Assembly (NCBI GenBank): GCA_947505055.1
Contig: CANNLO010000026.1
Location: forward strand, 1 to 24,963
Reading direction: 5' to 3'
Origin: Methylococcaceae bacterium
GTDB taxonomy: Bacteria; Pseudomonadota; Gammaproteobacteria; Methylococcales; Methylomonadaceae
Length of the DNA: 24,963 bases
Made by a program: the position numbers and the translations under genes. Positions 4,246-23,754 of the stretch are shown here, in pieces. Positions within the stretch are counted from its first letter, which is position 1, and each line of letters opens with the position of its first letter. The notes below the pieces were generated by a model that was given only the letters and a program-made list of their open reading frames with translations, did no database searches and was not told where the DNA came from.

Positions 4246-5165
4246 TGTTTAATCTTGCTGAGCAAAAGATGTTTGTAAATAAAATTGGTGTAGAGTTTTC
4301 TGAAAAGAACGAACCAAATTCTGCTGATAAACTTGTTATAGCAGTTTTGGTTACTTACTCAAAACCATTGATTAATGTGCCAGCTTGGAGCACATTAAAT
4401 GATTGGTTGATTTCATCCAAAAATTCTCATTTAACTCTTAATCATATTTTAATCTATGATAATTCTCCTGATCCCATTCTTAGAGATTTTCAAGATGATG
4501 ATCAGCTAACATATATACATGATCCATCTAATGGAGGAACCAGAGCAGCGCTTCTTAAGGGGAGTGAGATTGGATTGTTAAAAAATGCTGATTGGCTTCT
4601 GATGGTAGACCATGACACATTGTTACCAAAAAATTTATTAAATATTGCAGCAGATGTCAGCTCTCAAATATCTGCCATACCATACGCAGCATTAGCTCCC
4701 AAAGTTTTACAGAATGGCGCTTTAATTTCTCCAGCTACAATAAGTTCTGCCGGCATAATTCGACCTATTGAGGAAGATGCAACCCATAATGCCCGAGTAT
4801 TAATAACTGCGATTGCTTCGGGCACATTTTTCAATGTTGCTTCACTAAATAAAATAGGGAAAATCCCGGATATTTTTTGGTTGGACGGATTGGATCACTG
4901 GATATTCTGTAAATTTAATCAACAAAATGAATCTGTAGGGATTTTAAATTGCATGTTAGAACATGAGCTATCATTAAATAATATAAAAAATATGCCAGAT
5001 TGGCGGATTATTAACTTTATCAATTCACAACGTGAGCTTTTGAAAGTGCTGCCAATATTAGCAAGTCTTACTTACCCATACAGGTTATTCAGATTTTTAC
5101 TTAGAGTTTATTGGGCAGATAAGATTAAAGCTAAGGTAATTTTAAAGAGACTATTTTTTAAATAA
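4245..5165 (+). CDS. Family 2 glycosyltransferase (rhamnosyltransferase-like)
   Basis: I place the start at ATG 4245, which overlaps the upstream stop (TGATG) and gives 306 residues. In-frame ATGs at 4230 (311 residues) and 4269 are alternatives. The GT2 features are VAVLVTYS-like strand 1 (AVLVTYSKP), YDNSPDP for the first acidic loop, the SNGGTRAAL motif and LMVDHDTLLP, where DHD is the DxD metal site. The NxGG...A plus DxDxxLP spacing resembles the rhamnosyltransferase-like branch of GT2 (WbbL/RfbF style). That fits a dTDP-rhamnose supply from the rfb genes further on, but donor identity cannot be read from sequence. It is a cytosolic, inner-membrane-associated enzyme. The C-terminus is basic and hydrophobic. 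Confidence 0.8.
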   Translation: MFNLAEQKMFVNKIGVEFSEKNEPNSADKLVIAVLVTYSKPLINVPAWSTLNDWLISSKNSHLTLNHILIYDNSPDPILRDFQDDDQLTYIHDPSNGGTRAALLKGSEIGLLKNADWLLMVDHDTLLPKNLLNIAADVSSQISAIPYAALAPKVLQNGALISPATISSAGIIRPIEEDATHNARVLITAIASGTFFNVASLNKIGKIPDIFWLDGLDHWIFCKFNQQNESVGILNCMLEHELSLNNIKNMPDWRIINFINSQRELLKVLPILASLTYPYRLFRFLLRVYWADKIKAKVILKRLFFK

Positions 5166-5181
5166 GATAACACTGGCTTGA

Positions 5182-6132
5182 ATGCAAATACCCAGCAAAT
5201 TAATTAAAAATAATGATATGCAAATAGATATTTTGTTGCCTGTATACAATGGTGAATCATATTTAGCCGATCAACTTGACTCAATAATTAATCAAACAAA
5301 CAAAAATTGGCGCTTGTTAGTAAGGGATGATGGATCTACAGATAATTCAAGCAAGATATTGCATCAATATGCAAGAAAATATCCAAAAAAAATTGTCTTT
5401 ATTCAAGATGACATAGGTAATGTTGGCACTAAAGAATGTTTAAATATTTTGAGTGCACATGTCGATGCTGAAATATTTTCCTTCTGTGACCAGGACGATG
5501 TTTGGCATCCAGAAAAAATCTCGATATCACTTAATGCACTTAATAAAATTAATCAAAATAATATGCCTTTATTAGTTTATTGCGATATGGCCGTAACTGA
5601 TAAAAATCTTAATATTACAAATAAATCTTTTTGGGAAATGCATAAGCTTACTGACTATGCTTTAAGTCTAAAAGGCTTGCCAATAATTAACAGTATTGCA
5701 GGCTGCACTATGCTCGGGAATAGGGATCTTTTAGAGGCTGCATTTCCAATACCATATTGTGCTCCGATGCATGATATTTGGGTGGCTTTTGTTGCAAAAA
5801 ATTCTGGTCAAGCTATGGCAATTGATAGTCAATTAATTTATTACCGTCAGCATGAGTCAAATCAGTTAGGTGCTGGGTCCAAAATTATTCTTCCTTTGAG
5901 ACTGATTCATGTCTTAAAAAATATAAATGCGTATTTTCAACGTGGGGAGGTATTACGTAATCAAAGAGTTGGAATGATAGAAGAATTGCTTAAAAGAAAA
6001 ATCTCTTCTTTGCGATATAGAGATTGTATTGATATGCTTGAGTCGGAACGTGGAGGGATGCTTAAAAAAATAATCTACCTTATTAGAAATCGTATTTCAC
6101 TATTGCGCACATTTATATATTGGATCACATAA
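5182..6132 (+). CDS. Family 2 glycosyltransferase
   Basis: 316 residues from ATG 5182. A second in-frame ATG at 5218 (MQIDILLPVYNG) starts right at the first beta strand and may be the true start, because the 12 preceding residues are not part of the fold. GT2 signatures are LLPVYNG, VRDDGSTDNS, NVGTKE and FCDQDDVW, where DQDD is the metal/nucleotide site. The SFCDQDDVW block is characteristic of GT2 enzymes near rhamnosyltransferases of Gram-negative and streptococcal polysaccharide loci (RgpB/WbbL-like). It should transfer one sugar onto the lipid-linked intermediate at the cytoplasmic face. It starts 16 bases after the preceding stop with no clear Shine-Dalgarno in front of 5182. The gene is very AT-rich. 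Confidence 0.84.
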   Translation: MQIPSKLIKNNDMQIDILLPVYNGESYLADQLDSIINQTNKNWRLLVRDDGSTDNSSKILHQYARKYPKKIVFIQDDIGNVGTKECLNILSAHVDAEIFSFCDQDDVWHPEKISISLNALNKINQNNMPLLVYCDMAVTDKNLNITNKSFWEMHKLTDYALSLKGLPIINSIAGCTMLGNRDLLEAAFPIPYCAPMHDIWVAFVAKNSGQAMAIDSQLIYYRQHESNQLGAGSKIILPLRLIHVLKNINAYFQRGEVLRNQRVGMIEELLKRKISSLRYRDCIDMLESERGGMLKKIIYLIRNRISLLRTFIYWIT

Positions 6133-8607: not shown

Positions 8608-9576
8608 ATGGTATCAATAATATTAGGTGGTGCTGGATTTATAGGGACCAATTTAATTGGCCGTCTCATAAATGAGGGGCGTACGGTTGTTGTACTAGAC
8701 AACTTTTCCAGAGGTCGTAAGCAATATTCTGATGAGCTATTCGCCAATAGTAATGTATTTCACATATTAGAATGTGATGCATCATCTTTTGAATGGCTAT
8801 CAAAATCTTTTGAATTGGTGAGGGAATTAGGTGTTATTAGTGAAGTTTGGCATCTGGCAGCAAACTCTGATATCCCGGCTGGCGTCAATGATCCTTGCGT
8901 GGATTTAAAGGATACTTTCCTTACTACATTTGAATTGCTTCGAGTGATGAAGTTGTTTGATGTAAAAAACTTAAATTTTGCTTCTAGCTCAGCAATATAT
9001 GGTGACTTGGGGGATGTTACTCTTCATGAATCAGTGGGCCCATTGTTACCAATTTCAAATTATGGTGCGATGAAACTTGCTTCAGAGGCTTTAATATCCG
9101 CGGCAACGGAATCACATCTTAATAAAGTTAATATATTTAGATTTCCAAACGTTGTTGGTATTCCAGCAACACATGGAGTAATACTCGACTTCATTATAAA
9201 GCTTGTCAAGAACCCATTGCAGTTGAATGTACTGGGGGATGGAACACAACAAAAATCTTATTTGCATGTGTCAGATTTGGTAGATGCAATGCTGGTTATT
9301 TCTCATAGAAAATCTTTGAAAAAGATTGAAGTTATAAATATTGGTCCTGTCGATGAAGGTGTAACTGTTGATTGGATTGCTAAACAGGTTGTTAGTCGAG
9401 TAAGCCCAAATGCTGAAATCATTTTTGGTGATGGAAATAAAGGATGGGTTGGAGATGTTCCTATGTTTAAGTACTCTACAGAGAAGCTTCAGTCTTATGG
9501 ATGGACCCCTAAATTTTCTTCTCGAGAGGCTATTAATCTCGCAGTAAATCAAGTAGCCGATCAGATTATTATATGA
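8608..9576 (+). CDS. NAD-dependent epimerase/dehydratase (extended SDR)
   Basis: A 322-residue extended SDR. It has glycine motif G7-G8-A-G10-F-I-G13 at the N-terminus, LDNFSRGRK after strand 2 (Asp favours NAD), SSSAIYG with the catalytic Ser, and Y152-x3-K156 (YGAMK). SYLHVSDLVDAM and the C-terminal substrate-binding half match UDP-glucose 4-epimerase/dTDP- or GDP-sugar dehydratase relatives. The ATG at 8608 has AGAGAG 7 bases upstream; an out-of-frame ATG at 8603 is ignored. It overlaps the next GT2 by ATGA and heads the block that contains the GDP-heptose genes. A role in modifying GDP-D-manno-heptose (for example a 4,6-dehydratase or epimerase step) is attractive, but that is inference from context; it could equally be an NDP-hexose 4-epimerase. 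Confidence 0.82.
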   Translation: MVSIILGGAGFIGTNLIGRLINEGRTVVVLDNFSRGRKQYSDELFANSNVFHILECDASSFEWLSKSFELVRELGVISEVWHLAANSDIPAGVNDPCVDLKDTFLTTFELLRVMKLFDVKNLNFASSSAIYGDLGDVTLHESVGPLLPISNYGAMKLASEALISAATESHLNKVNIFRFPNVVGIPATHGVILDFIIKLVKNPLQLNVLGDGTQQKSYLHVSDLVDAMLVISHRKSLKKIEVINIGPVDEGVTVDWIAKQVVSRVSPNAEIIFGDGNKGWVGDVPMFKYSTEKLQSYGWTPKFSSREAINLAVNQVADQIII

Positions 9577-10382
9577 AAAAAATAATACCTAAAGTTTCAA
9601 TTCTCGTGCCCGTTTACAATGAGAACGTAGAAATATTAACGCAAAGTTTGAAGAGTATTGCGTCACAAACTTTTAGAGAGTTTGAATGTATTATTGTCGA
9701 TGATAGTACTAATTGGGCGACTATCAATGCATGTAAGTCTTTTTGTAATTCTGATAATCGTTTTAAATATATAAAACCTCCCCATCGATTAGGTCTTGCA
9801 GCTAGTCTCAACAAGGCATTGGCAGAAGCTTCAGGTGATTTAATAGCACGTTTTGATGCCGATGATATTTGTATGCCGAATCGCATATCACGCCAGTTTG
9901 ATTTTTTAACCTCCCATTCTGATGTTGACGTTTTAGGTACTGGCATTAGGATTATTGATGAAGGAGGTAAAGTTCTGCATAGAAGGATTTACCCATCAAC
10001 ACATAAACTTATAGATAGAAAATTTATTTTTACAACAGCAATTGCTCATCCCACAGTTATGGTAAGACGTTCAGTATTTCTATCAGCCGGTGGCTATGAT
10101 GAAAGTTTTAAATTTGCAGAAGATTTGGAATTGTGGCTTCGCCTCTTAAATATAGGGGCTAAATTCCACAATCTAGCTGATGAATTAATTTTATACAGGC
10201 AATCAAAAACGAGTCGATCAAAAAATAACTGGCATTCCAATATACGGGCTCGTATTAAGAACCTTTCATTTAGGTTTTTCCCTCTTAATATTTTATCGAT
10301 TATGGGAATATTTATCTGGAGCTTGTTACCAAAATTTCTACAAGAGTTAATTTACAAGGCATTGATGCTTAAGATTGCCTGA
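9573..10382 (+). CDS. Family 2 glycosyltransferase
   Basis: 269 residues. Clear GT2 core: SILVPVYNE (residues 9-17), VDDSTN, the RLGLAASLNKAL helix, and ARFDADDICMPNRI, where DADD is the metal-binding DxD. FAEDLELWLRL is the ED-x-x-LW catalytic-base motif. A C-terminal segment around residues 235-262 is hydrophobic and may anchor it to the inner membrane. The start overlaps the upstream SDR stop as ATGA, a coupled pair. Immediately downstream are the GDP-heptose precursor genes, so a heptosyltransferase role is possible by context only. A 40-base gap separates it from the next gene. Confidence 0.85.
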   Translation: MKKIIPKVSILVPVYNENVEILTQSLKSIASQTFREFECIIVDDSTNWATINACKSFCNSDNRFKYIKPPHRLGLAASLNKALAEASGDLIARFDADDICMPNRISRQFDFLTSHSDVDVLGTGIRIIDEGGKVLHRRIYPSTHKLIDRKFIFTTAIAHPTVMVRRSVFLSAGGYDESFKFAEDLELWLRLLNIGAKFHNLADELILYRQSKTSRSKNNWHSNIRARIKNLSFRFFPLNILSIMGIFIWSLLPKFLQELIYKALMLKIA

Positions 10383-10422
10383 CTTGGTAATGATTTAATG
10401 ATCTCATGGAGACTATAAACTT

Positions 10423-12339
10423 TTGAAACAAGAGAAGACATGCAGGGTTGCTATTCTAGCTGGAGGTATGGGCACTCGCTTAAAGTTAAGAAGTGGTGAG
10501 GTTCCTAAGCCATTAGTTAAGGTTTGCGGTGTTCCAATACTTGAGCATCAGATTAAACTATGTTGCAAGCATGGGTTCACAGAAATAGCACTTTTAGTAC
10601 ACCATCAATTTGAATTGATTAAAGACTATTTGGGAGATGGTTCAAAGTTTGGAGTATCAATACATTATGTTGTAGAAAAAGATCCGCGTGGAACTGCTGG
10701 TGCTTTAAAAGATGCACTTTATCTTATGGATGATCGATTTTTAGTTTTATATGCTGATACATATGCAAGTGTTGATTTAGAGAGTTTTTGGTATTTTGAT
10801 CAGGAAGTTAACTCATCAGGAACCTTGTTTCTTCATCCTAATTCACATCCTTATGACTCAGATTTGGTTGAGATCGATAAAAAAAACCTAGTTGTTAAAT
10901 CTATAAAGGCTTACCCACATCCAGCAAATGCGGATTATCCTAATCTGGTTAATGCTGCTTTATATATTTTAGACAAATCAACCTTGTCAAAAGTAATTCC
11001 ATGCGAGGGTAAGTATGACCTGGCAAAAGATATATTTAACAGGATTATATCGCAGGGTTTTAAACTGACGGGGTATGTCTCTTGTGAGTATATAAAAGAT
11101 ATGGGGACCCCTGATAGGCTCGACGCTGTAGAAAGTGATATTGATAAGGGGTTGCCTCATAAACTATCTATACAGAATTTTCGTTCTTGTGTTTTTATTG
11201 ATCGCGATGGTGTTATTAACGAAGATATTGATCATTTAAGCAATCCAGATGAGATTGAGTTAATTAATGGCTCTATTGATGCTATTCGAGCACTTAATAA
11301 GTCTGGGGTCCTCGCCATAGGTATAACAAATCAACCGGTGATAGCAAGAGGCGATGCAACATTTTCAGATATAGAGTCAGTTCATCTAAGGCTTGGAAAG
11401 TTGCTTGGAGATGGGGGTGCATATTTGGATGAGATTTATTACTGTCCGCATCATCCAGATAGTGGTTTTGCCGGTGAGGTGACTTCCCTTAAAATTAGAT
11501 GTGAATGCAGAAAGCCTGGTACAGGAATGATTGATGATGCTGTTAAAAAATTCAATATATCTAGAAAAAATTCATGGATAATTGGAGATAGAACTGCAGA
11601 TATTCTTGCTGGTGAGCGCGCTGGTCTGAGAACAATTCTCGTAAAGACCGGATATGCAGGAAGGGATTATTTGTATGATGTAGAACCTAACTTTATAGCC
11701 CGAAACTTAAAGGCTGCAGTCGACTGGATTAATGAGGGCTACAACGAGGTGTGTCGAAAAATTATGCCTATGCTGCCATCATTTATAGAATCACGCTTAA
11801 TTTTGATTGGTGGGCCATCGAGAACTGGTAAAACTTCGTTTGCTAGGGTGCTTAAGGAAATGCTGAGTTTGGTTGGACGCGATGTTCATTTGATCTCGCT
11901 AGATGGTTGGTTGGATCCTGATAGAAAATTAAATGAGGGGCATGGGGTATTGCGTCGTTACAAAATTGATGAATTTGTTGCTGATTTAGAAACTGTTTTA
12001 AATTCTAAACAGAGGGAACATTTCATACACCCGTCATATGATCCGATAAGTAGTAAAAGACTAAGAGATAAAAAAATATCAATAGGCCCTAGAGATATTA
12101 TCATCGTTGAAGGTGTCGTTTCACTTCTTGATTCTCGATTAATTGGCATGTCTAGTGAGAGTGTATTTTTAGATCTAGAATCAGATGCTGAACGACTAGA
12201 TAGATTGTTTTGTGAATATAGATTTCGAAATCAGGATTCAGATGCTGACATTCAAATTAAATTACAGTCGCGAGAGAAAGACGAAGTTTCAATCATTCGT
12301 GCTAATTCCTTTAAGGCAACATATAAAGTGACTTTCTAA
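10423..12339 (+). CDS. Three-domain heptose enzyme: HddC-like guanylyltransferase, GmhB-like phosphatase and P-loop kinase-like domain
   Basis: 638 residues from TTG 10423 (GGAG at 10408-10411, 11 bases upstream). Domain 1 (about 5-235) is a nucleotidyltransferase: LAGGMGTRL, then PKPLVKV, DPRGTAGAL and a YADTY metal site. It resembles D-glycero-D-manno-heptose 1-phosphate guanylyltransferase. Domain 2 (about 255-435) is a HAD-IIIA phosphatase of the GmhB type: nucleophile D260 and acid D262 (DRDGV), TNQP at 302-305, zinc ligands in CPHHP (341-345) with C360 and C362 before RKP, and GDRTAD at 388-393. Domain 3 (about 455-638) has Walker A G464-x4-G469-K470-T471, SLDGWLD (492-498) and IIVEG with E563, resembling the uridine-kinase/phosphoribulokinase family. 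The first two domains supply two steps of GDP-heptose synthesis; the third has no assigned role in that pathway. All key residues look intact. It lies 2 bases before hddA. Confidence 0.85.
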   Translation: MKQEKTCRVAILAGGMGTRLKLRSGEVPKPLVKVCGVPILEHQIKLCCKHGFTEIALLVHHQFELIKDYLGDGSKFGVSIHYVVEKDPRGTAGALKDALYLMDDRFLVLYADTYASVDLESFWYFDQEVNSSGTLFLHPNSHPYDSDLVEIDKKNLVVKSIKAYPHPANADYPNLVNAALYILDKSTLSKVIPCEGKYDLAKDIFNRIISQGFKLTGYVSCEYIKDMGTPDRLDAVESDIDKGLPHKLSIQNFRSCVFIDRDGVINEDIDHLSNPDEIELINGSIDAIRALNKSGVLAIGITNQPVIARGDATFSDIESVHLRLGKLLGDGGAYLDEIYYCPHHPDSGFAGEVTSLKIRCECRKPGTGMIDDAVKKFNISRKNSWIIGDRTADILAGERAGLRTILVKTGYAGRDYLYDVEPNFIARNLKAAVDWINEGYNEVCRKIMPMLPSFIESRLILIGGPSRTGKTSFARVLKEMLSLVGRDVHLISLDGWLDPDRKLNEGHGVLRRYKIDEFVADLETVLNSKQREHFIHPSYDPISSKRLRDKKISIGPRDIIIVEGVVSLLDSRLIGMSSESVFLDLESDAERLDRLFCEYRFRNQDSDADIQIKLQSREKDEVSIIRANSFKATYKVTF

Positions 12340-13901: not shown

Positions 13902-13917
13902 TTTCAAACGATACCAT

Positions 13918-14445
13918 ATAAAAGTACTTGTCAAAGGTGGCGCCAGCTTTATCGGAGCTGATTTTATCTTAGGTTGGATTAAGGAAATCTAGGCACAGTT
14001 GTTAATCTGGACAAACTCACCTACGCCGGTAATCTAGAAAATCTGTTCGAAATTCAGCATAATACACAGCATATATTTGTTCATGGTGATATTGGCGATC
14101 AAGGACTGGTGAAAAAACTGTTGGGAAAGCATCAGCCTTGTGCTGTTGTGAATTTTGCAGCAGAGAGTCACGTAGACCGCTCTATCCATGGCCCTGAAGA
14201 TTTCATCCAAACCAATGTAGTAGGTACGTTTCATTTGCTTGAAGCGGTGCGTGCTTATTGGAGTGGTTTAGATTCAGATCAACAACAAGCCTTTAGATTT
14301 ACATGTGACTACCGATGAAGTTTACGGTTCATTGGGGCCTGCTGAGACTGCATTTACTGAAACGTACACTTATGCATCGAACAGTCCTTACTCAGCTTCT
14401 AGGGTGGCATCTGACCATTTAGTGAGGGCTTATCACCATACTTAA
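13918..14445 (+). pseudogene. rfbB: Decayed, truncated dTDP-glucose 4,6-dehydratase gene (rfbB relic)
   Basis: The bases translate, across frame changes, into RfbB sequence matching the intact copy at 22663. KVLV-x-GGASFIGADFILGW is read from 13921, then a stop TAG at 13990-13992. Then VVNLDKLTYAGNLENL up to DQQQAFRF is read in another frame, and after a 2-base deletion near 14300 it continues [12 protein letters not shown] up to YSAS and HLVRAYHHT, ending in TAA at 14443-14445. The start codon position reads ATA, the coenzyme motif TGGAGFIG is altered to KGGASFIG, and YSASK is YSASR. It stops where the intact gene continues for another about 180 residues, so it is a 3'-truncated, multiply damaged copy. 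It cannot make active enzyme. Confidence 0.92.
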
Positions 14446-14473
14446 TAGCCAAGATTGCGCCCTGTGGCCGACC

Positions 14474-14752
14474 ATGAAAGTTAAGACATCAGATGGTAAT
14501 GTGCATTCATTCATTAAGTTTTATTGTGAATATTTTCTAAAGGAAAATGTAGATTTCTTCAATGTAATTAGCGATATTGCTCATCTTCGTCAGATCGTAA
14601 AAGAAATCAAGGATGCACGCCTCCCAAAGATAGCAGTATCCAACGCGTACGATGACCTTGATCGCGCCTTCTACCGAACCTGATCCGAACTACGTAAGCA
14701 CCAGCATTTGCGACAAGAGGGCAACACCGTGGACATCTTGTCTGAAGACTAA
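14474..14752 (+). pseudogene. Unrecognised ORF interrupted by an in-frame stop
   Basis: From ATG 14474 an open frame of 69 codons ends in TGA at 14681-14683, but the same frame stays open afterwards for 22 codons (SELRKHQHLR... ILSED) to TAA at 14750-14752. The hydrophilic, Lys/Asp/Glu-rich composition continues across the stop, which looks like one small gene broken by a nonsense mutation. Upstream the frame is also open back into the rfbB relic, so the original start may be lost. I do not recognise the family; no catalytic motif or membrane segment is visible. It sits in the scar between the heptose genes and the next module and may be debris of whatever rearranged this site. It could also be a chance open frame. 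Confidence 0.35.
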
Positions 14753-14912
14753 GTAAGTCAATTATCTCATTTCACACATGTTTGCTAGGAAACGTTCTTA
14801 ATAGTGCAAAAGATGCTATAAAGCCAATTTTTAGAACAAAATTCATTCTATTTAATTCTTACGATTCTATTGTCCTGTATAATTTTCACACTACAAGCTT
14901 AGGCTGCCATCC
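14753..14912 (+). promoter_or_regulatory. Intergenic region with candidate promoter for the 14.9-21.5 kb module
   Basis: No ORF. A perfect TATAAT at 14878-14883, about 30 bases before the ATG at 14913, is a plausible -10 element. Its -35 partner 17 bases upstream (ATTCTT) is poor, so activator dependence or a different start is possible. A promoter is expected here because the seven following genes are coupled and the sequence before them is decayed. Confidence 0.4.
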
Positions 14913-15938
14913 ATGAACAACTGCCTGCCAATTTTTATTTCCATCGTTTTAGTCCTTAAAAATCAAGCCTTACATCTAAACAAAATCATCTGTGAATCAT
15001 CGTACTGCATTGAACCACTGGTTGTTGATTATGAGTTGATTATTGTCGATAACGCATCAAATGATGAGAGTGTGCTGGCGTTAAAAAAATTAACGGCTGA
15101 AAACGGCATGCCTAACTTACAAGTCTTTGTGTTAACCAAGGAAGTCGATGCGGATACGGCCGCTTGGGTGGGGTTAGAAAATGCGCTGGGAGATTTTGTC
15201 GTAGTCATTGATCCTTTGACAGACGATATTGCTTTTCTTCCAGAAATGCTTGATGCAGCAGTACACGGAGCTGATGTGGTGTTTGCTAATAATCAACATA
15301 AACCTAGACAAAGTATCGCTTATCGGACTGCCTCTAATGTTTTTAATAGACTTTATAAGACCTTTAACGGTATAGATTTGGCCAAAGATGCACCACAATA
15401 TCGGTTGCTAAGTAAACGAGTCGTCAACTTTATATTGCAACACCCTCAACCTGCTATGACCTATCGGCATTTACCTGCCTCGGGCGGATTTGCCCGCACT
15501 AATCTTGAATACACGGCTCAACCTAAAATCGTTTACACCAAGAAAATCGGAGAAAGCATTGATCGAGGGATGCGTATGCTGGTATCTACCACGCGTGCAC
15601 CCATGCGTTTAGTCAATACGCTATCTGTATTTGGTGCGATAGCTAACTTATTGTATTCATTTTATGTTGTCGGCGTTGCCTTATTAAAATCAGATGTTGC
15701 ACCGGGATGGGTTAGCATGTCATTACAACAATCAGGTATGTTTTTCTTACTTTCGCTCGTGCTACTGGTCTTGGGAGAATACATCGTACACATGGCCAGT
15801 TTATCGAACGAAGGCCCGCTTTATCATGTCGGACAAGAATTCACGAGTGCCAGAATGACGCGGCACGAAAAGTTGAACATAGAAGTAGTGGCTGCCATTT
15901 CAAAAAATCAGCTTCCCACTTTTCCAAAGATTGACTAA
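14913..15938 (+). CDS. GT2 glycosyltransferase with C-terminal membrane helices (GtrB/DPM-like)
   Basis: 341 residues. The N-terminal GT-A domain has ISIVLVLKNQ as strand 1, ELIIVDNASNDES for the first acidic loop and FVVVIDPLTDD at the metal-binding position, here DPLTDD rather than a strict DxD. NVFNRLYKTFNG is the helix typical of polyprenyl-phosphate glycosyltransferases. Two hydrophobic segments follow at about residues 232-256 and 270-292, the arrangement of GtrB and related enzymes that load a sugar on undecaprenyl phosphate. The C-terminus after residue 292 is cytosolic and ends with a charged tail. It begins a gene series in which nearly every junction overlaps. Its stop overlaps a possible TTG start of the next gene by 8 bases. 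The exact donor is unknown. Confidence 0.78.
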   Translation: MNNCLPIFISIVLVLKNQALHLNKIICESSYCIEPLVVDYELIIVDNASNDESVLALKKLTAENGMPNLQVFVLTKEVDADTAAWVGLENALGDFVVVIDPLTDDIAFLPEMLDAAVHGADVVFANNQHKPRQSIAYRTASNVFNRLYKTFNGIDLAKDAPQYRLLSKRVVNFILQHPQPAMTYRHLPASGGFARTNLEYTAQPKIVYTKKIGESIDRGMRMLVSTTRAPMRLVNTLSVFGAIANLLYSFYVVGVALLKSDVAPGWVSMSLQQSGMFFLLSLVLLVLGEYIVHMASLSNEGPLYHVGQEFTSARMTRHEKLNIEVVAAISKNQLPTFPKID

Positions 15939-17064
15939 AGTCATGCAAGCCAATCAACCTTACGATGCGGTCATTATTGGAGGCGGATTTTATGGCGCAA
16001 CAATTGCGATTTACCTGGCAAAGCAACGCGACCTAAAGCACATCTTGCTGGTGGAGCGTGAATCAGCCATACTCACCCGCGCCTCCTACAACAATCAAGC
16101 TCGCGTTCACAATGGGTATCATTACCCGCGCAGCTTTACCACAGCCTATCGCAGCCGTATCAATCTGCCCAAATTTGTTCGCGATTGGCCATTCGCAGTT
16201 AAACAAGACTTCACTAAGTTATATGCCATTGCCCGTCGTAATTCCAAAGTCACTGCCAAACAATTTGTGCGCTTCTGTAAAGAAATCGGCGCCAAGATTG
16301 AACCAGCAGATCAATCGTTGCGCCAGTTATTTGAACCTAATCTCATCGAAGAAGTGTTCTTGGTTGAAGAGTTCGCCTTTGACTCAAGCAAGTTGGCGAG
16401 TTGGGCTCAAAGAGAATTAAAAGAGTGTGGAGTAAAAGTACGTCTTGAAACTCGCGTTACAGCAATCTCAAAAAAAAATGATAACACGCTCAAGGTCACC
16501 ATGCATGAGGAAGGGGGAAATGTAGCTGAAATTGCCAGTCGTTATGTTTTCAATTGCACCTACTGCGGACTCAATCAGTTCTCAGGGGATTTTCCGGGTA
16601 CGACCACGCACCTCAAGCAGGAAATCACCGAGATGGCATTGATGGACGTACCTCCTGCTCTTAAGGGGTTGGGCATAACCGTGATGGATGGCCCCTTTTT
16701 TTCGATGATGCCTTTTCCCGCACGTGGATTGCATACTTTATCTCATGTTCGCTATACGCCGCACATGCACTGGAATGACCAACGCGGCATTGATCCTTAC
16801 CAAAAGCTAAGTGACTATGAGCGTGCTACTCGTGTAGATCGTATGATCAGAGATGTGGCGCGGTATCTACCTTCAGTGCTGCAAGCCAAATATGTTGAGT
16901 CGTTGTTTGAAGTCAAAACCATTCTTGTAAAAAACGAGGGTGATGACGGCCGACCGATTTTATTTGAGAAGCATCAGGAACTGCCTGGATGTTATACCGT
17001 GCTGGGTGGAAAGATTGACAATATTTATGATGTACTAGTGAAGTTAGATGAAGAAGTTATTTGA
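15931..17064 (+). CDS. FAD-dependent oxidoreductase (DAO-like family)
   Basis: 377 residues from TTG 15931; ATG 15943 is an equally good start and avoids the 8-base overlap. The Rossmann FAD motif is VIIGGGFYGATIA near the N-terminus, and LLVERE ends strand 2 with the acidic ribose contact. Right after comes RASYNNQARVHNGYHYPRS, a His/Tyr-rich stretch in the position where DAO-family enzymes contact flavin. A C-terminal TVLGGKIDNIYD closes the FAD domain. The family oxidises C-N or C-OH bonds (glycine oxidase, 2-hydroxyglutarate oxidase relatives). In this setting it may oxidise a sugar or amino sugar, but no substrate is implied by the sequence. It overlaps the next gene by 17 bases. Confidence 0.8.
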   Translation: MTKVMQANQPYDAVIIGGGFYGATIAIYLAKQRDLKHILLVERESAILTRASYNNQARVHNGYHYPRSFTTAYRSRINLPKFVRDWPFAVKQDFTKLYAIARRNSKVTAKQFVRFCKEIGAKIEPADQSLRQLFEPNLIEEVFLVEEFAFDSSKLASWAQRELKECGVKVRLETRVTAISKKNDNTLKVTMHEEGGNVAEIASRYVFNCTYCGLNQFSGDFPGTTTHLKQEITEMALMDVPPALKGLGITVMDGPFFSMMPFPARGLHTLSHVRYTPHMHWNDQRGIDPYQKLSDYERATRVDRMIRDVARYLPSVLQAKYVESLFEVKTILVKNEGDDGRPILFEKHQELPGCYTVLGGKIDNIYDVLVKLDEEVI

Positions 17065-18703
17065 TTTAAAGAACAACAATTGGTTGATCCACCTTATAGC
17101 GATTGGAGTTTTGTTATTAGGTGCTTTTGTGAATTTTTTCCCGCATAGTGGAATCTTTTTTGACGATCCTTTTCATTATGGTGAGTATGTTGCAACTCTG
17201 CCATCGGTGCTTGTGGGTGAAATGAGTTTCATCACAATACACGGAGCATTAGATTGGATGCCTGCATGGATTGCTCAACTTTTTGTTGGCACCGAAAGGC
17301 ACTTCCTTATAACTATGACTCTTTACGCAGTTTTAAACCTTATTGCGTGTTTTCTGCTTTATTTAATTATCACCTTGTTTGCCCAAGCCCATATAAAATA
17401 TTGGGCGTTTATACTACTGGTTTCATCTGTTACGGCTATCTATCTGGTTTCGCATAAGGATGTTTTTCTTTTGCTATCTATTTTTCTCTTTTTTCTTCAC
17501 CAGCGATTTTTACAATCAGAGCTCCAAGCCCGTTTACTGGAGGTGTCTTTAGGCGTAGCACTTGCTGTGGGTATGTTTTGGTCGTTTGACCGGGGTGTTG
17601 CTGGTATTGGTGGGATAGGTGGTGCTTGTATGATCTTATTCGCTACAGAACGACGACATTCAATTACAGTAATTTCCTTTATTCTGTTTATCGCAATTTT
17701 CTCATGGATGGGCTTTTTCTCTTTTACTGACCACATCGATAACTTCAAGTTTTTACTCGCTACTTCTTCACAGTGGAGTTATGGTTTCCAAAGATTTGCA
17801 GTATTAATGACATTGGTGGCAGCAATATTCAATGCAATGGCTGCATATTATTTAGTGAAAGGTTTCTTTCGTTCATATGGGAACGACTGGAGGGAGTTGG
17901 CAAACATTTATTTGATTTTTGTTTTATGCCTAATAATGCTGAAAATCGGCATTAATAGAGCCGACATGGGTCATATTGATATGGCGCTTTGGATGCCTAT
18001 ACTTGCTTATCTTTATTTGCGGATAAAACAAAAAGAACGTCCTAATATACTTTTTTTGGTGATATTAACACTAATGACATCTGGCTTAGGGTTGATAGCG
18101 GCTTGGTATGGAAGGCAGTATTTATTAGGAGTAAGTACTATTATTCCTGTTCTATATATTGTCGAAAATAAGTTTCCAAAACTGTCCACTAAATTTACAG
18201 ACTCACGATGGGCTGTTTTTATTTTTGCATTTGTGGTGATTTCAATTAATGGCACTTTCTTCACGCTTAATCTGATTCATGAGAGGTATCAATGGTTAGT
18301 TCAGATAACAAATCCGCCTCGCAATGAATTGTTGGTTGACGAAAGTATTCGGTGGGTCTCTACAGAAATATTGAAGGCAGGCTCGAACTGTGTATTCGAT
18401 CTTTCCAATCATGGGGTAATAAATGGAGTCAGTGGATTGTCGGCTTGCACAAGATATACATATCCAGTTTATGCAACCCAACACTATGAAGCCGATATGA
18501 TTCAACAATTGCAAAAACGTAGCCCTCCTGTGGTTGTCTATTCTTCTACTCACGTGGCTTTCGAAATTGATGGCAGGTCTATGCATGATCGTTTTCCTGA
18601 GTTGAAAAAATATATGCTAAAAACTTATCAATATGAAAAATGTAATTTTGGTTATTGCCTCCGTTATCTTCATCAACCAACAGAGAAGAGCATTGCTTCA
18701 TGA
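17048..18703 (+). CDS. Polytopic membrane protein, probable GT-C-type glycosyltransferase
   Basis: 551 residues. Helix 1 lies at about residues 13-31, followed by an extracytoplasmic loop with FFDDPFHYGEY (D39, D40, H43, E46). Acidic residues in loop 1 after helix 1 are the hallmark of GT-C enzymes that use polyprenyl-phosphate sugars. About ten more helices continue to about residue 415, and a C-terminal soluble part (about 420-551) with several Cys probably lies in the periplasm. It should transfer a sugar from undecaprenyl phosphate to a periplasmic acceptor, if the GT-C call is right. It overlaps the FAD gene by 17 bases and the following SDR by ATGA. Base composition is lower in GC than its immediate neighbours. 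I do not recognise a named homologue. Confidence 0.68.
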   Translation: MKKLFDLKNNNWLIHLIAIGVLLLGAFVNFFPHSGIFFDDPFHYGEYVATLPSVLVGEMSFITIHGALDWMPAWIAQLFVGTERHFLITMTLYAVLNLIACFLLYLIITLFAQAHIKYWAFILLVSSVTAIYLVSHKDVFLLLSIFLFFLHQRFLQSELQARLLEVSLGVALAVGMFWSFDRGVAGIGGIGGACMILFATERRHSITVISFILFIAIFSWMGFFSFTDHIDNFKFLLATSSQWSYGFQRFAVLMTLVAAIFNAMAAYYLVKGFFRSYGNDWRELANIYLIFVLCLIMLKIGINRADMGHIDMALWMPILAYLYLRIKQKERPNILFLVILTLMTSGLGLIAAWYGRQYLLGVSTIIPVLYIVENKFPKLSTKFTDSRWAVFIFAFVVISINGTFFTLNLIHERYQWLVQITNPPRNELLVDESIRWVSTEILKAGSNCVFDLSNHGVINGVSGLSACTRYTYPVYATQHYEADMIQQLQKRSPPVVVYSSTHVAFEIDGRSMHDRFPELKKYMLKTYQYEKCNFGYCLRYLHQPTEKSIAS

Positions 18704-19500
18704 ACTTATTTGATGCCTTGATTGGCTATTCCGGCTTTGTCGGATCAACGCTATTAAAGCAATCTTCCTTCGAAGGACTTTATCGCTCAACCAATATCGG
18801 CGAGATCAGTGGCAAGACTTTCGACACCGTAGTCTGTGCCGGAGCGTCCGCGCAAAAATGGATTGCGAATCGCGAACCTGAAGCGGATCGGAAAAAGATC
18901 GAAGGATTGATCTCGCACTTGAAGTCGATGACTTGCCAAACCTTCATCCTGATAAGCACCGTTGATGTTTTTACAACGCCCATCAATGTTGATGAGGGGA
19001 CCCCTGTTGATGAAGAAGGTCTTCACGCTTACGGTCTGAACCGTCGCCAGTTAGAGAAGTTTGTTGAAAGCTATTTTCCTAATTACCTCATCGTGCGTTT
19101 GCCAGGCTTAGTTGGGCCTGGTCTGCGCAAGAACGTCATCTTTGATTTTCTGAATGAAAATAATATTCAGGCAATTGATAGTAGGGTTTTTTTTCAGTTT
19201 TACCCGATGGTAAACCTCTGGTACGACATTCAAACAGCGCTTAATGCGGGCTTGAAGTTGGTTCACCTCACCGCAGAGCCGATTAGCGTCGCTGACATTT
19301 CTGCGCATGGTTTCGGCAAACCGTTTGCCCAAGCGCAGGCAAATAGCCCTGTTAACTATGATTTGCGGAGTCAGCACGCAGAAATTTTCGGTACAACTGG
19401 GCATTACCAATACAGTCAGCGCGAAACTATTCAAGCCGTTCGTGCTTATGCGCAATCAGAGCCGATTACGCTTAAAGCAACGGAAGAGAGAAACGTATGA
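18700..19500 (+). CDS. Atypical SDR-like NAD(P)-binding protein
   Basis: I choose ATG 18700 (266 residues): it overlaps the upstream stop as ATGA and has GAGAAGAG at 18683-18690. The frame is open to 18655, but that extension lacks fold features. The N-terminal glycine motif is reduced to G9-Y-S-G12-F-V-G15 directly after strand 1. STVDVF supplies a Ser/Thr, and the Tyr motif reads YGLNR (Y111, R115), so the usual catalytic Lys is Arg. RLPGLVGPGL follows, as in extended SDRs. Length is short for an epimerase, with a reduced substrate domain. It may be a reductase/epimerase with altered chemistry or a catalytically weak binding protein. It is coupled to the isomerase gene by ATGA. Confidence 0.72.
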   Translation: MNLFDALIGYSGFVGSTLLKQSSFEGLYRSTNIGEISGKTFDTVVCAGASAQKWIANREPEADRKKIEGLISHLKSMTCQTFILISTVDVFTTPINVDEGTPVDEEGLHAYGLNRRQLEKFVESYFPNYLIVRLPGLVGPGLRKNVIFDFLNENNIQAIDSRVFFQFYPMVNLWYDIQTALNAGLKLVHLTAEPISVADISAHGFGKPFAQAQANSPVNYDLRSQHAEIFGTTGHYQYSQRETIQAVRAYAQSEPITLKATEERNV

Positions 19501-20333
19501 GGTTGGCAATTTCAAATATTGCGTGGGATGTTGCAGAAGACAAAGATGTCGCCAAGTTGCTTAATCGTTATGGCATTGACGCGATTGATATTGCACCGGG
19601 AAAGTATTTTCCTGATCCAACCAAAGCAACAGAAGCTGAAATTGCCCAAGTAAAAAACTGGTGGCGTGAACGGGGTATTGAAATCACAGGGATGCAAGCG
19701 CTGCTATTCGGCACTTCCGGCTTAAACGTATTTGGTGCACCAGAAGTACAAGCCAGTTTATTACAACACCTTGCTGCTGTTTGCCGCATCGGGGCTGAGC
19801 TTGGCGCCACTCGCATTGTGTTTGGCTCCCCAAAAAACCGCGATCGCACAAGTTTAAGTGATGAACAGGTGCAGGCGATTTCAGTCCCGTTCTTTAGGAA
19901 ACTGGGAGATATTGCGCAGTCCCATGGCGTGATGATTTGTTTAGAACCGAATCCGCCGTGTTATGGCGCAAACTTTATGACGACGAGCGAGGAAACTGCA
20001 GAGGTTGTTAGGCAAGTGGCGCATCCTGCAATCCGAATGCAATTGGATACAGGAGCTATCACCATCAATGGCGAAGACGCTCTAGCAGTATTTGAAAACT
20101 ATGCAGCGTTCATCGGCCATGTTCACGTCAGTGAGCCAGATATTGCACCGCTCGGTGATAGAGGGACTAATCACGCAGTAATGGCAAGCGCCTTGAGACA
20201 GTTTCTGCCGAACCAAATTGTTTCTATCGAAATGTTAGCCACTAAAAATGAACCTCATCTAGTTTCAATCGAACGGGCTTTGGACGTGGCGGTTAGGTTT
20301 TACCGAGGGATTAGCGCGGACGTACCCAAATGA
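19497..20333 (+). CDS. Sugar phosphate isomerase/epimerase-like TIM-barrel protein
   Basis: A 278-residue xylose-isomerase-like TIM barrel (IolE/IolI/hydroxypyruvate isomerase superfamily). The four expected metal ligands on strands 5-8 are visible: E150 in CLEPNP, D184 in QLDTG, H210 in HVHVSEPD and E245 in SIEML, all correctly spaced. Strand 1 is MRLAISNIAWD. The enzyme should bind a divalent metal and isomerise or epimerise a keto/aldose or keto-acid substrate in the cytosol. Its neighbours (SDR upstream by ATGA, transporter-like gene downstream by ATGA) suggest it handles a precursor of the sugar that this module builds. The substrate cannot be assigned. Confidence 0.85.
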   Translation: MRLAISNIAWDVAEDKDVAKLLNRYGIDAIDIAPGKYFPDPTKATEAEIAQVKNWWRERGIEITGMQALLFGTSGLNVFGAPEVQASLLQHLAAVCRIGAELGATRIVFGSPKNRDRTSLSDEQVQAISVPFFRKLGDIAQSHGVMICLEPNPPCYGANFMTTSEETAEVVRQVAHPAIRMQLDTGAITINGEDALAVFENYAAFIGHVHVSEPDIAPLGDRGTNHAVMASALRQFLPNQIVSIEMLATKNEPHLVSIERALDVAVRFYRGISADVPK

Positions 20334-20686
20334 AATGGCTAATTCTTTTCCTTGGCATCGCCTCCAACGCTTCAGCCAGTGTGCTGGTAAAATTTGCGAT
20401 GATGGCACCACGCAAATTTCCTTCACTATCTGATCCAATGGCAGCCTTAAGTAATTGGCCATTCTGGCTGGGTTTGGGTTTATATGGCGTTGCTTTTTTG
20501 CTGTATGCGGCGGCTTTGGCGCGTTTGCCGTTAAATGTGGCTCATCCCATTTTAACTTCGGGGGCCGTGGCAGCGGTGGCTTTGTGTTCGCTGTTTATTT
20601 TTCGTGAATCTTTTCATTGGACGACGATTACTGGGATTTTATTGGTGCTGGTGGGCGTAGTATTAATTACGTTGAAGGCTGTATGA
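20330..20686 (+). CDS. Small four-helix membrane protein, ArnE/EmrE-like (EamA/SMR superfamily)
   Basis: 118 residues with four hydrophobic segments (about 2-20, 43-66, 70-90 and 97-117). HPILTSGAVAAVALCSLFIFRE is the helix 3 to loop region typical of SMR/EamA half-transporters, and ITGILLVLVGVVLI is the last helix. In size and motif order it resembles ArnE/ArnF, the paired flippase subunits for undecaprenyl-phosphate-aminoarabinose. Because a polyprenyl-phosphate glycosyltransferase and a GT-C-like protein lie in the same operon, a lipid-linked-sugar flippase is the best guess, probably as a homodimer because no second subunit is seen. A drug exporter is the alternative. The start overlaps the upstream stop as ATGA. 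Confidence 0.78.
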   Translation: MKWLILFLGIASNASASVLVKFAMMAPRKFPSLSDPMAALSNWPFWLGLGLYGVAFLLYAAALARLPLNVAHPILTSGAVAAVALCSLFIFRESFHWTTITGILLVLVGVVLITLKAV

Positions 20687-20701
20687 GATTGAAAGCTGAA
20701 A

Positions 20702-21508
20702 ATGAGTGAGATAGTGATGATTTGTAATGATCGTGCAAGTTGGCAAGTGCCCGCATTTGAAACGAAAATGTGGCTTGGTCGTCAACATCTTTGGTGCGTC
20801 GTGATCCCTGTTATTAATGAAGGGGATCGCATTCAAAGCTTATTACGAAAAATGGCAAAGCTCAACATCGCAGGGATTGCCGACATTATTATTGTGGATG
20901 GAGGTAGTCGTGATGGTTCGTTAGAAATTGAATTTCTAAAAACCAATGGGGTACGTGGCTTGCTATTAAAAACCGCACCGGGCAAGCTCAGCGCACAACT
21001 CCGTTGTGCCTATGCTTTTGCCATGGATCAAGATTACGAAGGTGTCGTGACGATTGATGGTAATGACAAGGATGATCCGATTACAATTCCAAAATTCATT
21101 GATTCATTAAAACAAGGCGTTGACTTTGCGCAAGCTTCACGTTTTTTGGCGGGCGGCGTTGCTTTAAATACGCCGAAGTTGCGCGATTTCGCCATTCGGT
21201 TCATACACGCGCCATTGTTGAGTTTATTTTCTGGATTTCACTGGACTGATACTACCCAAGGTTATCGTGCATACAGCAGAAAAATGTTGCTCGACGTCAA
21301 TATGGCGGTATTTCGTGACGTATTTATGACATATGAATTGCTGGCATATCTTTCTTATCGGGCTCCAAAGCTTGGATATAAATGTCTTGAGATCCCAGCT
21401 GCTAGGAGTTACCCAAAAGGTAAAATCCCCACTAAGATTAGCACATTTAAAGGAAACTTTTCTGTATTAAAGATTCTTTTTTATGCGTGTATGGGATGGT
21501 ATGATTGA
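20702..21508 (+). CDS. Family 2 glycosyltransferase, DPM1/DPG-synthase-like
   Basis: 268 residues; ATG 20702 lies 15 bases after the previous stop, and ATG 20717 is an alternative because the fold starts only at about residue 30 (WCVVIPVINEG). IIIVDGGSRDGS and VVTIDGNDKDDP mark the GT-A nucleotide and metal sites. TDTTQGYRAYSR and PKGKIPTKIS near the end are the signature of dolichyl/undecaprenyl-phosphate sugar synthases. No C-terminal membrane helices are evident beyond a short hydrophobic tail, unlike the 14913 gene. It probably makes a polyprenyl-phosphate-linked sugar for the module's membrane transferase. It is the last gene of the coupled series; 233 non-coding bases follow. Confidence 0.83.
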   Translation: MSEIVMICNDRASWQVPAFETKMWLGRQHLWCVVIPVINEGDRIQSLLRKMAKLNIAGIADIIIVDGGSRDGSLEIEFLKTNGVRGLLLKTAPGKLSAQLRCAYAFAMDQDYEGVVTIDGNDKDDPITIPKFIDSLKQGVDFAQASRFLAGGVALNTPKLRDFAIRFIHAPLLSLFSGFHWTDTTQGYRAYSRKMLLDVNMAVFRDVFMTYELLAYLSYRAPKLGYKCLEIPAARSYPKGKIPTKISTFKGNFSVLKILFYACMGWYD

Positions 21509-22662: not shown

Positions 22663-23754
22663 ATGTATAAATCCATTATTGTTACAGGCGGTGCCGGATT
22701 CATCGGCACAAATTTTGTTCTAGCCTGGCTGCGGCAAGAACAAATACTCGGTAAGCTTGTTAATCTTGATGCGCTAACTTATGCCGGTAATCTAGATAAT
22801 CTAGCCTCTATTCACCAAAATACGCAGCATATTTTTGTGCACGGCGATATTGGTGACCAAGCGCTGGTATCGCAATTATTAGCAGAACATCGGCCTGAAG
22901 CGGTTATTAACTTTGCCGCTGAAAGCCATGTGGATAGATCCATCCATGGGCCAGAAGACTTTATTCGAACCAATGTGGTTGGCACATTTCATTTACTAGA
23001 AGCTGTACGTGCCTATTGGAGTGGTTTAGATTCAAATCAGCAAGAAGCATTTAGATTTTTACATGTATCTACGGATGAAGTCTACGGCTCATTGGGAGCA
23101 ACTGATGCTGCGTTTACCGAAACTCACACTTATGCACCGAACAGTCCTTACTCAGCTTCTAAAGCAGCATCTGACCATTTAGTGCGGGCTTATCACCATA
23201 CTTATGGATTGCCTACATTAACCACCAACTGTTCTAATAATTATGGGCCTTATCACTTTCCAGAAAAGTTGATTCCATTGGTTATTCATAATGCACTAGC
23301 AGGCAAGCCTTTGCCTATCTATGGTAGCGGCCAGCAGATTCGTGATTGGCTTTATGTGGAAGACCATTGTGCAGCTATTCGATGTGTTCTAGAAAAAGGT
23401 AAGGTTGGTGAGGTATACAACATTGGCGGCTGGAATGAAAAGCCAAATATTGAAGTAGTCAAAATATTATGTCGCATGCTGGATACTAAAAAGCCTCGAG
23501 CAGATGGCAAATCCTATGTTGACCAGATAACTTTTGTAGAAGATCGTTTAGGGCATGATCAGCGATATGCGATTGATGCCTCTAAAATAGCTAAAGATTT
23601 AGGCTGGAAGCCAAAAGAAACCTTTGAATCCGGTATAGAAAAAACCGTTGACTGGTATTTGGAGCATCAAGATTGGGTTAACAACGTTACCAGTGGCGAT
23701 TACCGTCACTGGGTTTCAAAACATTATGTAAATCGCGGAGAAGAGTTAGCATGA
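22663..23754 (+). CDS. rfbB: dTDP-glucose 4,6-dehydratase
   Basis: A 363-residue extended SDR of normal RfbB/RmlB length. [10 protein letters not shown] binds [15 protein letters not shown] is the RmlB signature. T137-D138-E139 (STDEVYG) supplies the catalytic Asp/Glu pair for dehydration, and Y163-x3-K167 (YSASK) the SDR Tyr/Lys. [14 protein letters not shown] and [10 protein letters not shown] complete the substrate site. It converts dTDP-D-glucose to dTDP-4-keto-6-deoxy-D-glucose in the cytosol. It overlaps rfbA by ATGA. A decayed second copy lies in the same orientation at 13918-14445; from 14368-14444 the two differ at only 6 of 77 bases, while further upstream they differ at many silent positions. 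Confidence 0.97.

Follow-up and report, generated by a model that had tools for sequence, protein, structure and literature searches.

We analysed a 24,963-nucleotide stretch of DNA from a Methylococcaceae bacterium (contig CANNLO010000026.1; the whole stretch is called the window below), in which seven genes, labelled A to G, lie on one strand at 14913..21508. We find that the cassette to which they belong is real, conserved and mobile, and that its conserved unit is a six-gene core, A-B-D-E-F-G, plus one exchangeable gene, C. Its export side is a variation on a known kind of system, and its sugar-making side is unrecorded as far as the open-licence literature was searched. We hypothesize, giving this reading an even chance, that it is a horizontally moving cassette for surface-glycan modification with two arms, one (B, E and D) that would make a sugar in the cytosol and one (G with A, F and C) that would load this sugar on a lipid, flip it and transfer it. 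The seven genes are as follows.

14913..15938, + strand: gene A, GtrB/ArnC-like; two C-terminal membrane helices; GT2 domain with a decayed DxD site (DPLTDD)
15931..17064, + strand: gene B, flavin adenine dinucleotide (FAD)-dependent oxidoreductase of DAO/GlpD fold; putative sugar oxidase; alternative start ATG 15943
17048..18703, + strand: gene C, probable GT-C membrane glycosyltransferase; exchangeable, acceptor-specific gene
18700..19500, + strand: gene D, short atypical short-chain dehydrogenase/reductase (SDR), Y111-x-x-x-R115; putative keto-sugar reductase; longer TTG start at 18655
19497..20333, + strand: gene E, xylose-isomerase-like TIM barrel; presumed metal ligands E150, D184, H210 and E245; putative keto-sugar epimerase
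20330..20686, + strand: gene F, SMR-type small membrane protein; putative undecaprenyl-phosphate-sugar flippase
20702..21508, + strand: gene G, DPM1-like GT2 with the motif DGNxKDDP; probable catalytic subunit of a polyprenyl-phosphate sugar synthase

All seven open reading frames were verified at these coordinates. From A to G the junctions are overlaps of 8, 17, 4, 4 and 4 bases and one gap of 15 bases, exactly as a preliminary description of the window had listed them, the first depending on the start of B: TTG at 15931 gives the 8-base overlap with A, and ATG at 15943 leaves a 4-base gap. Pfam upheld the families which that description had given to five of the proteins, with GT2 for A and G, DAO for B, AP_endonuc_2 for E and TMEM234/EamA/SMR for F.

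To define the conserved unit, we scanned one genome per species with a profile of D, which found 95 relatives, and kept the best 80 loci (L001-L080; loci are cited by such numbers throughout), scoring a core gene as present where a tblastn match covered more than half of its length. The complete core is found in 64 of the 80 loci, and in 62 of these 64 it has the gene order of the window on a single strand, the exceptions being L005 (B-A-D-E-F-G) and L080 (D-E-F-B-A-G). The incomplete loci comprise eight without detectable F, four with D-E-F-G, two with A-B-D-E-F, one with B-D-E-F-G and one with A-B-D-E; several of them end at contig edges, although the shortfalls in L033 and L040 do not. According to their record titles, the carriers include Pseudomonas, Paraburkholderia, Gallionella, Methylobacter, Legionella, Roseilinea, Anaerolineae, Ignavibacteria and Nitrospirae. 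With starts chosen by script, D and E share an identical 4-base overlap in 67 of the 80 loci, and a 4-base overlap also joins E to F in 55 of the 71 loci that have both genes; since these overlaps recur across loci, the junctions in the window are not due to chance. The pairwise distances of the six core proteins are correlated (r 0.59-0.77; 62 sequences including the window; 999 permutations), in a signal that still contains host ancestry. All seven genes had been proposed to form one unit, whose joint conservation independent of O-antigen loci was to be looked for; the six-gene core does co-occur in this way, also on plasmids and in prophages, but C is not part of it.

A second sampling used B as bait. 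Counting the genome at the centre of each sample, B is carried by 5 of 200 genomes sampled from the order to which a Collimonas genome belongs, and by 18 of 298 sampled from the genus of a Pseudomonas genome. A adjoins B in all 23 of these loci (in L102 the match spans only 55% of A), and D is present in 20 of the 23 after eight regions were widened; at least four of the 23 duplicate known loci (L013, L008, L072, L012), which limits the independence of this test. In wider samples the counts were 5 of 398 and 2 of 247 genomes, centres again included; once these loci were widened, their arrangements proved to be the full set with C (L128), A-B alone on a 7.5 kb contig (L129), a GtrA-type set (L130), B-A-D with G and E on the opposite strand (L131) and a second B-aldo/keto reductase-GT2 arrangement with an A-like protein two genes beyond B (L132). 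Two copies of D-E lie about 8 kb apart within a single locus, L117. At the protein level, searches returned at least 7993 relatives of B (7999 candidates scored) and 5121 relatives of D (5737 candidates).

The cassette is not bound to O-antigen loci. In Psychrobacter it makes up more than half of a 10.8 kb plasmid, and alphaproteobacterial plasmids carry it in the order D-E-A-B-GtrA-G; after this set comes a large hypothetical protein in L085 and L086 (where it clusters with C) and in L134, and an exosortase gene in L084. The whole core is also present on the contig of a contractile-tailed prophage with tail sheath, tape measure and repressor genes (L136), together with a gene weakly like PMT_2, below cut-off. 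At blastn sensitivity, gene B was found in one of 5426 E. coli genomes, where the core lies on a plasmid, with phage late genes on one side and an integrase remnant on the other (L133); A is annotated there as frameshifted, alone among the six core genes.

We turn to the three putative sugar-making enzymes. B is a DAO flavoprotein by Pfam, its structure model ranks first to GlpD, and it resembles 2-hydroxyacid and amino-acid oxidases; structure alignments covered 24 chosen B homologues (19 loci and five database proteins). DprE1, a VAO-family protein, is not among the listed structure matches of the B model, which carries no weight against kinship. D has the catalytic pair Y-x-x-x-R and not the Y-x-x-x-K of classical extended SDRs; tyrosine and arginine are present in 88 of 88 bacterial sequences and the motif in 16 of 19 phage copies. 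This agrees with its earlier description as an atypical SDR, but its Pfam match to Epimerase stays below threshold (19.9 bits against a cut-off of 20.9). E matches PF01261 with 83.8 bits, weakly resembles IolO (4e-14; 52.6 bits against a cut-off of 300) and psicose epimerase (1.4e-8; 34.9 against 300) in NCBIfam, and is also weakly similar to hydroxypyruvate isomerase. Its residues E, D, H and E, which we take to be metal ligands, are present in 87 of 87 bacterial sequences and 7 of 7 phage copies. Motif counts here and below (84 A, 88 D and 87 E sequences) left out any protein with internal stops and any A copy of at most 300 residues; column counts excluded matches with less than 40% identity or at most 85% coverage, as well as proteins with internal stops. 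Across the loci B is constant, E is optional, and the reductase is either D or an aldo-keto reductase (AKR), which replaces D and E together in four loci (L113-L115 and L132). This pattern is the one to be expected of a redox epimerisation, in which oxidation and optional inversion beside the ketone would be followed by reduction. Such a route fits the parts better than the sugar acid earlier entertained as a product, for which we find no support.

Copies of B, D and E are also present in phages. Besides prophage L136, scans of viral contigs found six records with adjacent B, D and E (L135, L137, L142, L145, L148 and L150); L135 is related to L145, so that there are at most five independent viral trios, in which the active-site residues of D and E are kept. 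Searches for A and G across all six whole viral records gave no match, although the records may be incomplete; the prophage record had both. As far as these sequences indicate, B-D-E is separable from the lipid arm. Because the viral records carry B-D-E without a match to A or G, they independently support the division into two arms. Our findings also support the initial view of the module as a translationally coupled cassette for a lipid-linked sugar, made of three soluble enzymes for an unusual sugar and a membrane arm. Because the phage copies stand without the lipid arm, we favour as substrate a soluble activated sugar, which would most simply be a nucleotide sugar. D and E are fused in a 501-amino-acid protein in L148, and B and D in one of 593 amino acids in L162.

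In L137 (386 kb) the trio is followed directly, with overlapping genes, by a homologue of T4 beta-glucosyltransferase (PF09198, 5.7e-15; PHROG 7922, 4.5e-39), and a thymidylate-synthase-family gene lies upstream. The neighbour table, drawn from 28 viral loci, left out L153, L164 and repeats of earlier contigs. Of eight other phage neighbours that were tested, four score above cut-off for a glycosyltransferase family (GT10 and group 1 in L142, GT2 in L148, group 1 in L147), and the remaining four are a DUF4422 protein, a DUF4214 protein, a GT2 below cut-off and a protein with no match; the neighbour in L150 has a glycosyltransferase PHROG match. Directly 5' of B, L135 (953-2020) and L145 (from 5888) encode a protein of 355-358 amino acids (PHROG 14998, tested for L135) that could be the transferase of the sugar; directly 3' of E, L135 has a C5-cytosine DNA methylase by Pfam (4566-5765) and L145 a gene of the same cluster (9541-10734). 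An annotated phage collection of 50,697 records held one unannotated 4 kb record with D-E-G-B pieces. In L149, L151, L152, L154-L159 and L166 a relative of D stands beside an aminotransferase-like protein (PHROG 3139, tested for L149) and other repeated families, with neither B nor E detected, which probably makes this a separate phage sugar locus.

The lipid arm contains two GT2 proteins, A and G, whose conservation differs. A matches a GT2 family in Pfam and, among structures, GtrB (5eke, E 1.4e-16) and ArnC. GtrB has a DXD site that binds metal (PMC4728340). The expected stretch of A contains D-x-D in just 2 of 84 sequences and lacks it in 82; of the 84, 71 have D and 8 have N at position 100, and 76 have P at position 101. 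Distant copies (L080, L084-L087) have lost the first aspartate and, mostly, the DNxS motif, and have kept the helices; alphaproteobacterial copies, 20-25% identical to A of the window, each match the A profile at E 1.8e-8 or better in a search of few sequences. Two helices in the C-terminal part are found in 74 of 76 A sequences, and ten distant copies retain at least two. G matches PF00535 (39 bits) and dolichol-phosphate mannose synthase (5mlz, E 3.3e-6), and has DGNxKDDP in 76 of 84 sequences and DGNxK in six distant copies; by hydropathy (n=77), 58 G proteins have no helix, 18 have one and one has two. Human DPM1 has no membrane helices and works with DPM2/DPM3 (PMC5526996). Because A keeps its helices with a decayed GT2 site, and G keeps its motif mostly without helices, this complementary conservation suggests that the two may form one split synthase, with G as the catalytic subunit and A as its membrane partner. 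Because A is degenerate and lacks the DxD usual in GT2 proteins, A and G are probably not two separate synthases, which corrects the initial interpretation.

The remaining membrane genes are exchangeable. C has no match in Pfam or NCBIfam; its structure model resembles GT-C enzymes and has the GT-C fold (alignments covered 12 of the 13 clustered homologues from L001-L080, L028 being left out), so that the GT-C-like character first proposed for it, which finds no counterpart in family profiles, is probable on the strength of the model. Homologues of C occur in 13 of the 80 loci found with D, other membrane proteins occupy the slot elsewhere, and the presence of C does not follow the relatedness of the core. 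Like GtrC, C is swapped between loci. F matches SMR/EamA families in both Pfam and NCBIfam, and a GtrA-family protein holds its position in L084-L087, L134 and L113-L115. In Cereibacter a GT2 and PMT_2 are joined in one protein of 839 amino acids. A membrane protein of 1053-1165 amino acids is present in 18 loci (including L001, L003, L006, L009, L010, L013, L022, L029, L032 and L035), 2-3 kb downstream of the D start, after G, in 15 and upstream in three; its L035 member, the one tested, has no Pfam match, and it is likely a further family of enzymes using the slot.

The mechanism that we propose would begin in the cytosol, where B would act on an activated hexose, probably a nucleotide sugar, and oxidise one of its secondary hydroxyls to a ketone. 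As a metal-dependent TIM-barrel epimerase, E would invert the carbon beside the ketone, and D would reduce the ketone, the flavin step driving the route to an otherwise unfavoured epimer. G, with A as a GtrB homologue kept for its membrane part, would load undecaprenyl phosphate with the sugar, F (replaced by GtrA elsewhere) would flip the lipid-linked sugar, and C would transfer it to a periplasmic glycan. Every one of these reactions, the nucleotide-sugar level of the substrate and the partnership of A with G are what we infer from sequences and models, and the identity of the sugar is putative. The sequences and models themselves show the gene set with its conservation, the states of the motifs, the folds modelled for B and C, the swaps and the B-D-E cassettes of phages. 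The non-homologous swaps, GtrA for SMR, AKR for D and E, and other proteins in the slot of C, keep the logic of the pathway and count in its favour. More tentatively, and with less than even confidence, we suggest that B, E and D make up an FAD-driven, as yet undescribed route to rare epimers of nucleotide hexoses, portable between bacterial surface-decoration cassettes with a split synthase and a dead-GtrB membrane subunit and phages that would put the sugar on their own DNA or on other targets.

Several observations weigh against the proposed mechanism. L113-L115 lack D and E, neither of which had a match at E 0.001 in their genomes, and have the arrangement A-B-GT2-aldo/keto reductase-GtrA. 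In five viral records B-D is present and no E was detected (L147, L162, L163, L167 and L169), and many more phage contigs have relatives of D with no detectable B or E, which probably belong to other pathways. G has asparagine, in its DGN motif, where dolichol-phosphate mannose synthase has Asp91, so that its own metal site is unusual; in the Pyrococcus enzyme the metal is held by Asp91 and Gln93 (PMC5526996). This last point is also an argument for taking A and G as two active polyprenyl-phosphate transferases for two sugars, one of them made by B-E-D: if G departs from DxD, an altered motif need not mean a dead enzyme, both proteins are GT2s retained in most loci, and D100 is kept in 71 of 84 A sequences. 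We nevertheless regard two transferases as quite unlikely, given that 82 of the 84 lack D-x-D in that stretch, that distant A copies lose both the first aspartate and DNxS yet keep their helices, and that each locus has one small flippase.

The same redox epimerisation might instead take place on the lipid-linked sugar, in the manner of DprE1/DprE2, with G making undecaprenyl-phosphate hexose, A presenting it to B, E and D acting on it and F flipping the product. The constant adjacency of A and B in the 23 B-bait loci, AKR-type Pseudomonas loci included, would suit such a role for A, and B is closest in fold to GlpD, which is membrane-associated and oxidises a hydroxyl close to a phosphate. 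There is precedent as well, DprE1/DprE2 and the ORF13 epimerase of Citrobacter having been placed at the polyprenyl level (PMC11127046). The six viral records with B-D-E and no match to A or G speak against it, as do the tested phage neighbours, which include cytosolic or DNA glycosyltransferases, and we consider it rather unlikely. We hold it improbable that the product of B, E and D is a small group, either a non-sugar or a sugar acid, that is attached to a lipid-linked sugar: the similarity of B to 2-hydroxyacid and amino-acid oxidases and the weak similarity of E to hydroxypyruvate isomerase are in its favour, but the core has no acyl-activating or acyltransferase gene and some phage neighbours are sugar transferases. 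Finally, the window is a polysaccharide locus with rml and heptose genes, in which ordinary O-antigen genes might lie side by side by accident; we give this next to no credence, as it is refuted by the finding that the core recurs in 64 of 80 loci, in 62 of them in the same order, and on plasmids and in prophages.

Within the window the module is flanked by heptose genes on one side and rmlBA on the other, and one further feature lies upstream.

13910..14450, + strand: rmlB remnant (second copy, decayed), 78% identity over 448 bp to 22757-23204 in intact rmlB

Because this remnant upstream of the module is 78% identical to the intact downstream rmlB, the sequence suggests recombination around the module; about 460 bp (14450-14912) separate it from gene A. 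At 10423-12339 a protein of 638 amino acids combines a nucleotidyltransferase, a HAD phosphatase and a phosphoribulokinase/uridine-kinase-like domain; it adjoins GHMP kinase and SIS genes, and we read these as a heptose-activation set with an extra kinase domain. Promoter and terminator scans gave no excess above shuffled sequence, and a search of the window for tRNA genes found none.

Were our reading correct, bacterial glycobiology would gain an unrecorded sugar-activation chemistry, the flavin-driven epimerisation of an activated hexose, and an accessory locus in 5 of 200 genomes of the order sampled around Collimonas and 18 of 298 of the genus sampled around Pseudomonas would be accounted for. 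One enzyme set would tie phage-borne surface conversion to the glycosylation of phage DNA. A is a candidate pseudo-glycosyltransferase kept for its membrane part, and offers a testable case; the optional E and the exchangeable reductase, flippase and GT-C enzyme would make every step directly testable.

In the parts of the open-licence literature searched, we found no description of this gene set and no matching characterised locus, in agreement with the earlier expectation that the module is not identical to a known Gtr/Arn-like locus; PMC6896180 and PMC9823363 treat other genes, and the available text of PMC12838424 contains neither 'FAD' nor 'oxidoreductase'. On the phage side, the nearest parallels are T-even DNA glucosylation and RB69 DNA arabinosylation, which also call for an activated sugar for DNA, and the trio of L137 lies beside a beta-glucosyltransferase homologue. 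The sugar-supply genes considered for RB69 are other candidates, however; its UDP-arabinose source is called unclear, and 'oxidoreductase' does not occur in the available text (PMC6024577).

On the bacterial side, the Gtr systems (GtrA flippase, GtrB synthase and variable GtrC) share with the cassette a small flippase, a polyprenyl-phosphate GT2, a variable acceptor enzyme and carriage by prophages, and in some lineages F itself is replaced by a GtrA-family protein. The gtr cluster consists of three genes (PMC3688519), whereas here B, D and E also belong to the core, at least three enzymes seem to be sugar-making, and G and A appear to be the two parts of a split synthase, the GtrB homologue A being without an intact DxD. 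For such a split, the human type-II dolichyl-phosphate-mannose synthase is the model, with a helix-free catalytic GT2 and separate membrane partners, as we propose for G and A (PMC5526996); the partner here would be a decayed GtrB homologue and not a protein of 80-90 residues, and the A-G pairing is putative.

For the combination of redox enzymes with a lipid carrier, the mycobacterial decaprenyl-phosphoryl-arabinose pathway offers a flavin oxidase with an SDR reductase, DprE1 and DprE2. It likewise has an SMR-family exporter (Rv3789) and a GT-C transferase (PMC11127046). It differs in that B here has a DAO/GlpD fold, a TIM epimerase is added, the synthase is a GT2 and not a phosphoribosyltransferase, and our phage data favour a soluble substrate. 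The pentofuranose systems of Citrobacter youngae O1/O2 (GT136) share a lipid-linked donor, a flippase, a GT-C enzyme and an auxiliary epimerase, but theirs are a MATE flippase, a pentose derived from phosphoribosyl pyrophosphate and a single SDR epimerase, with no 'FAD' in the available text (PMC11127046); the corresponding core proteins here match GT2 and SMR/EamA in Pfam and NCBIfam. DprE1/DprE2 and the Citrobacter pentofuranose systems (PMC11127046) are the closest lipid-level systems.

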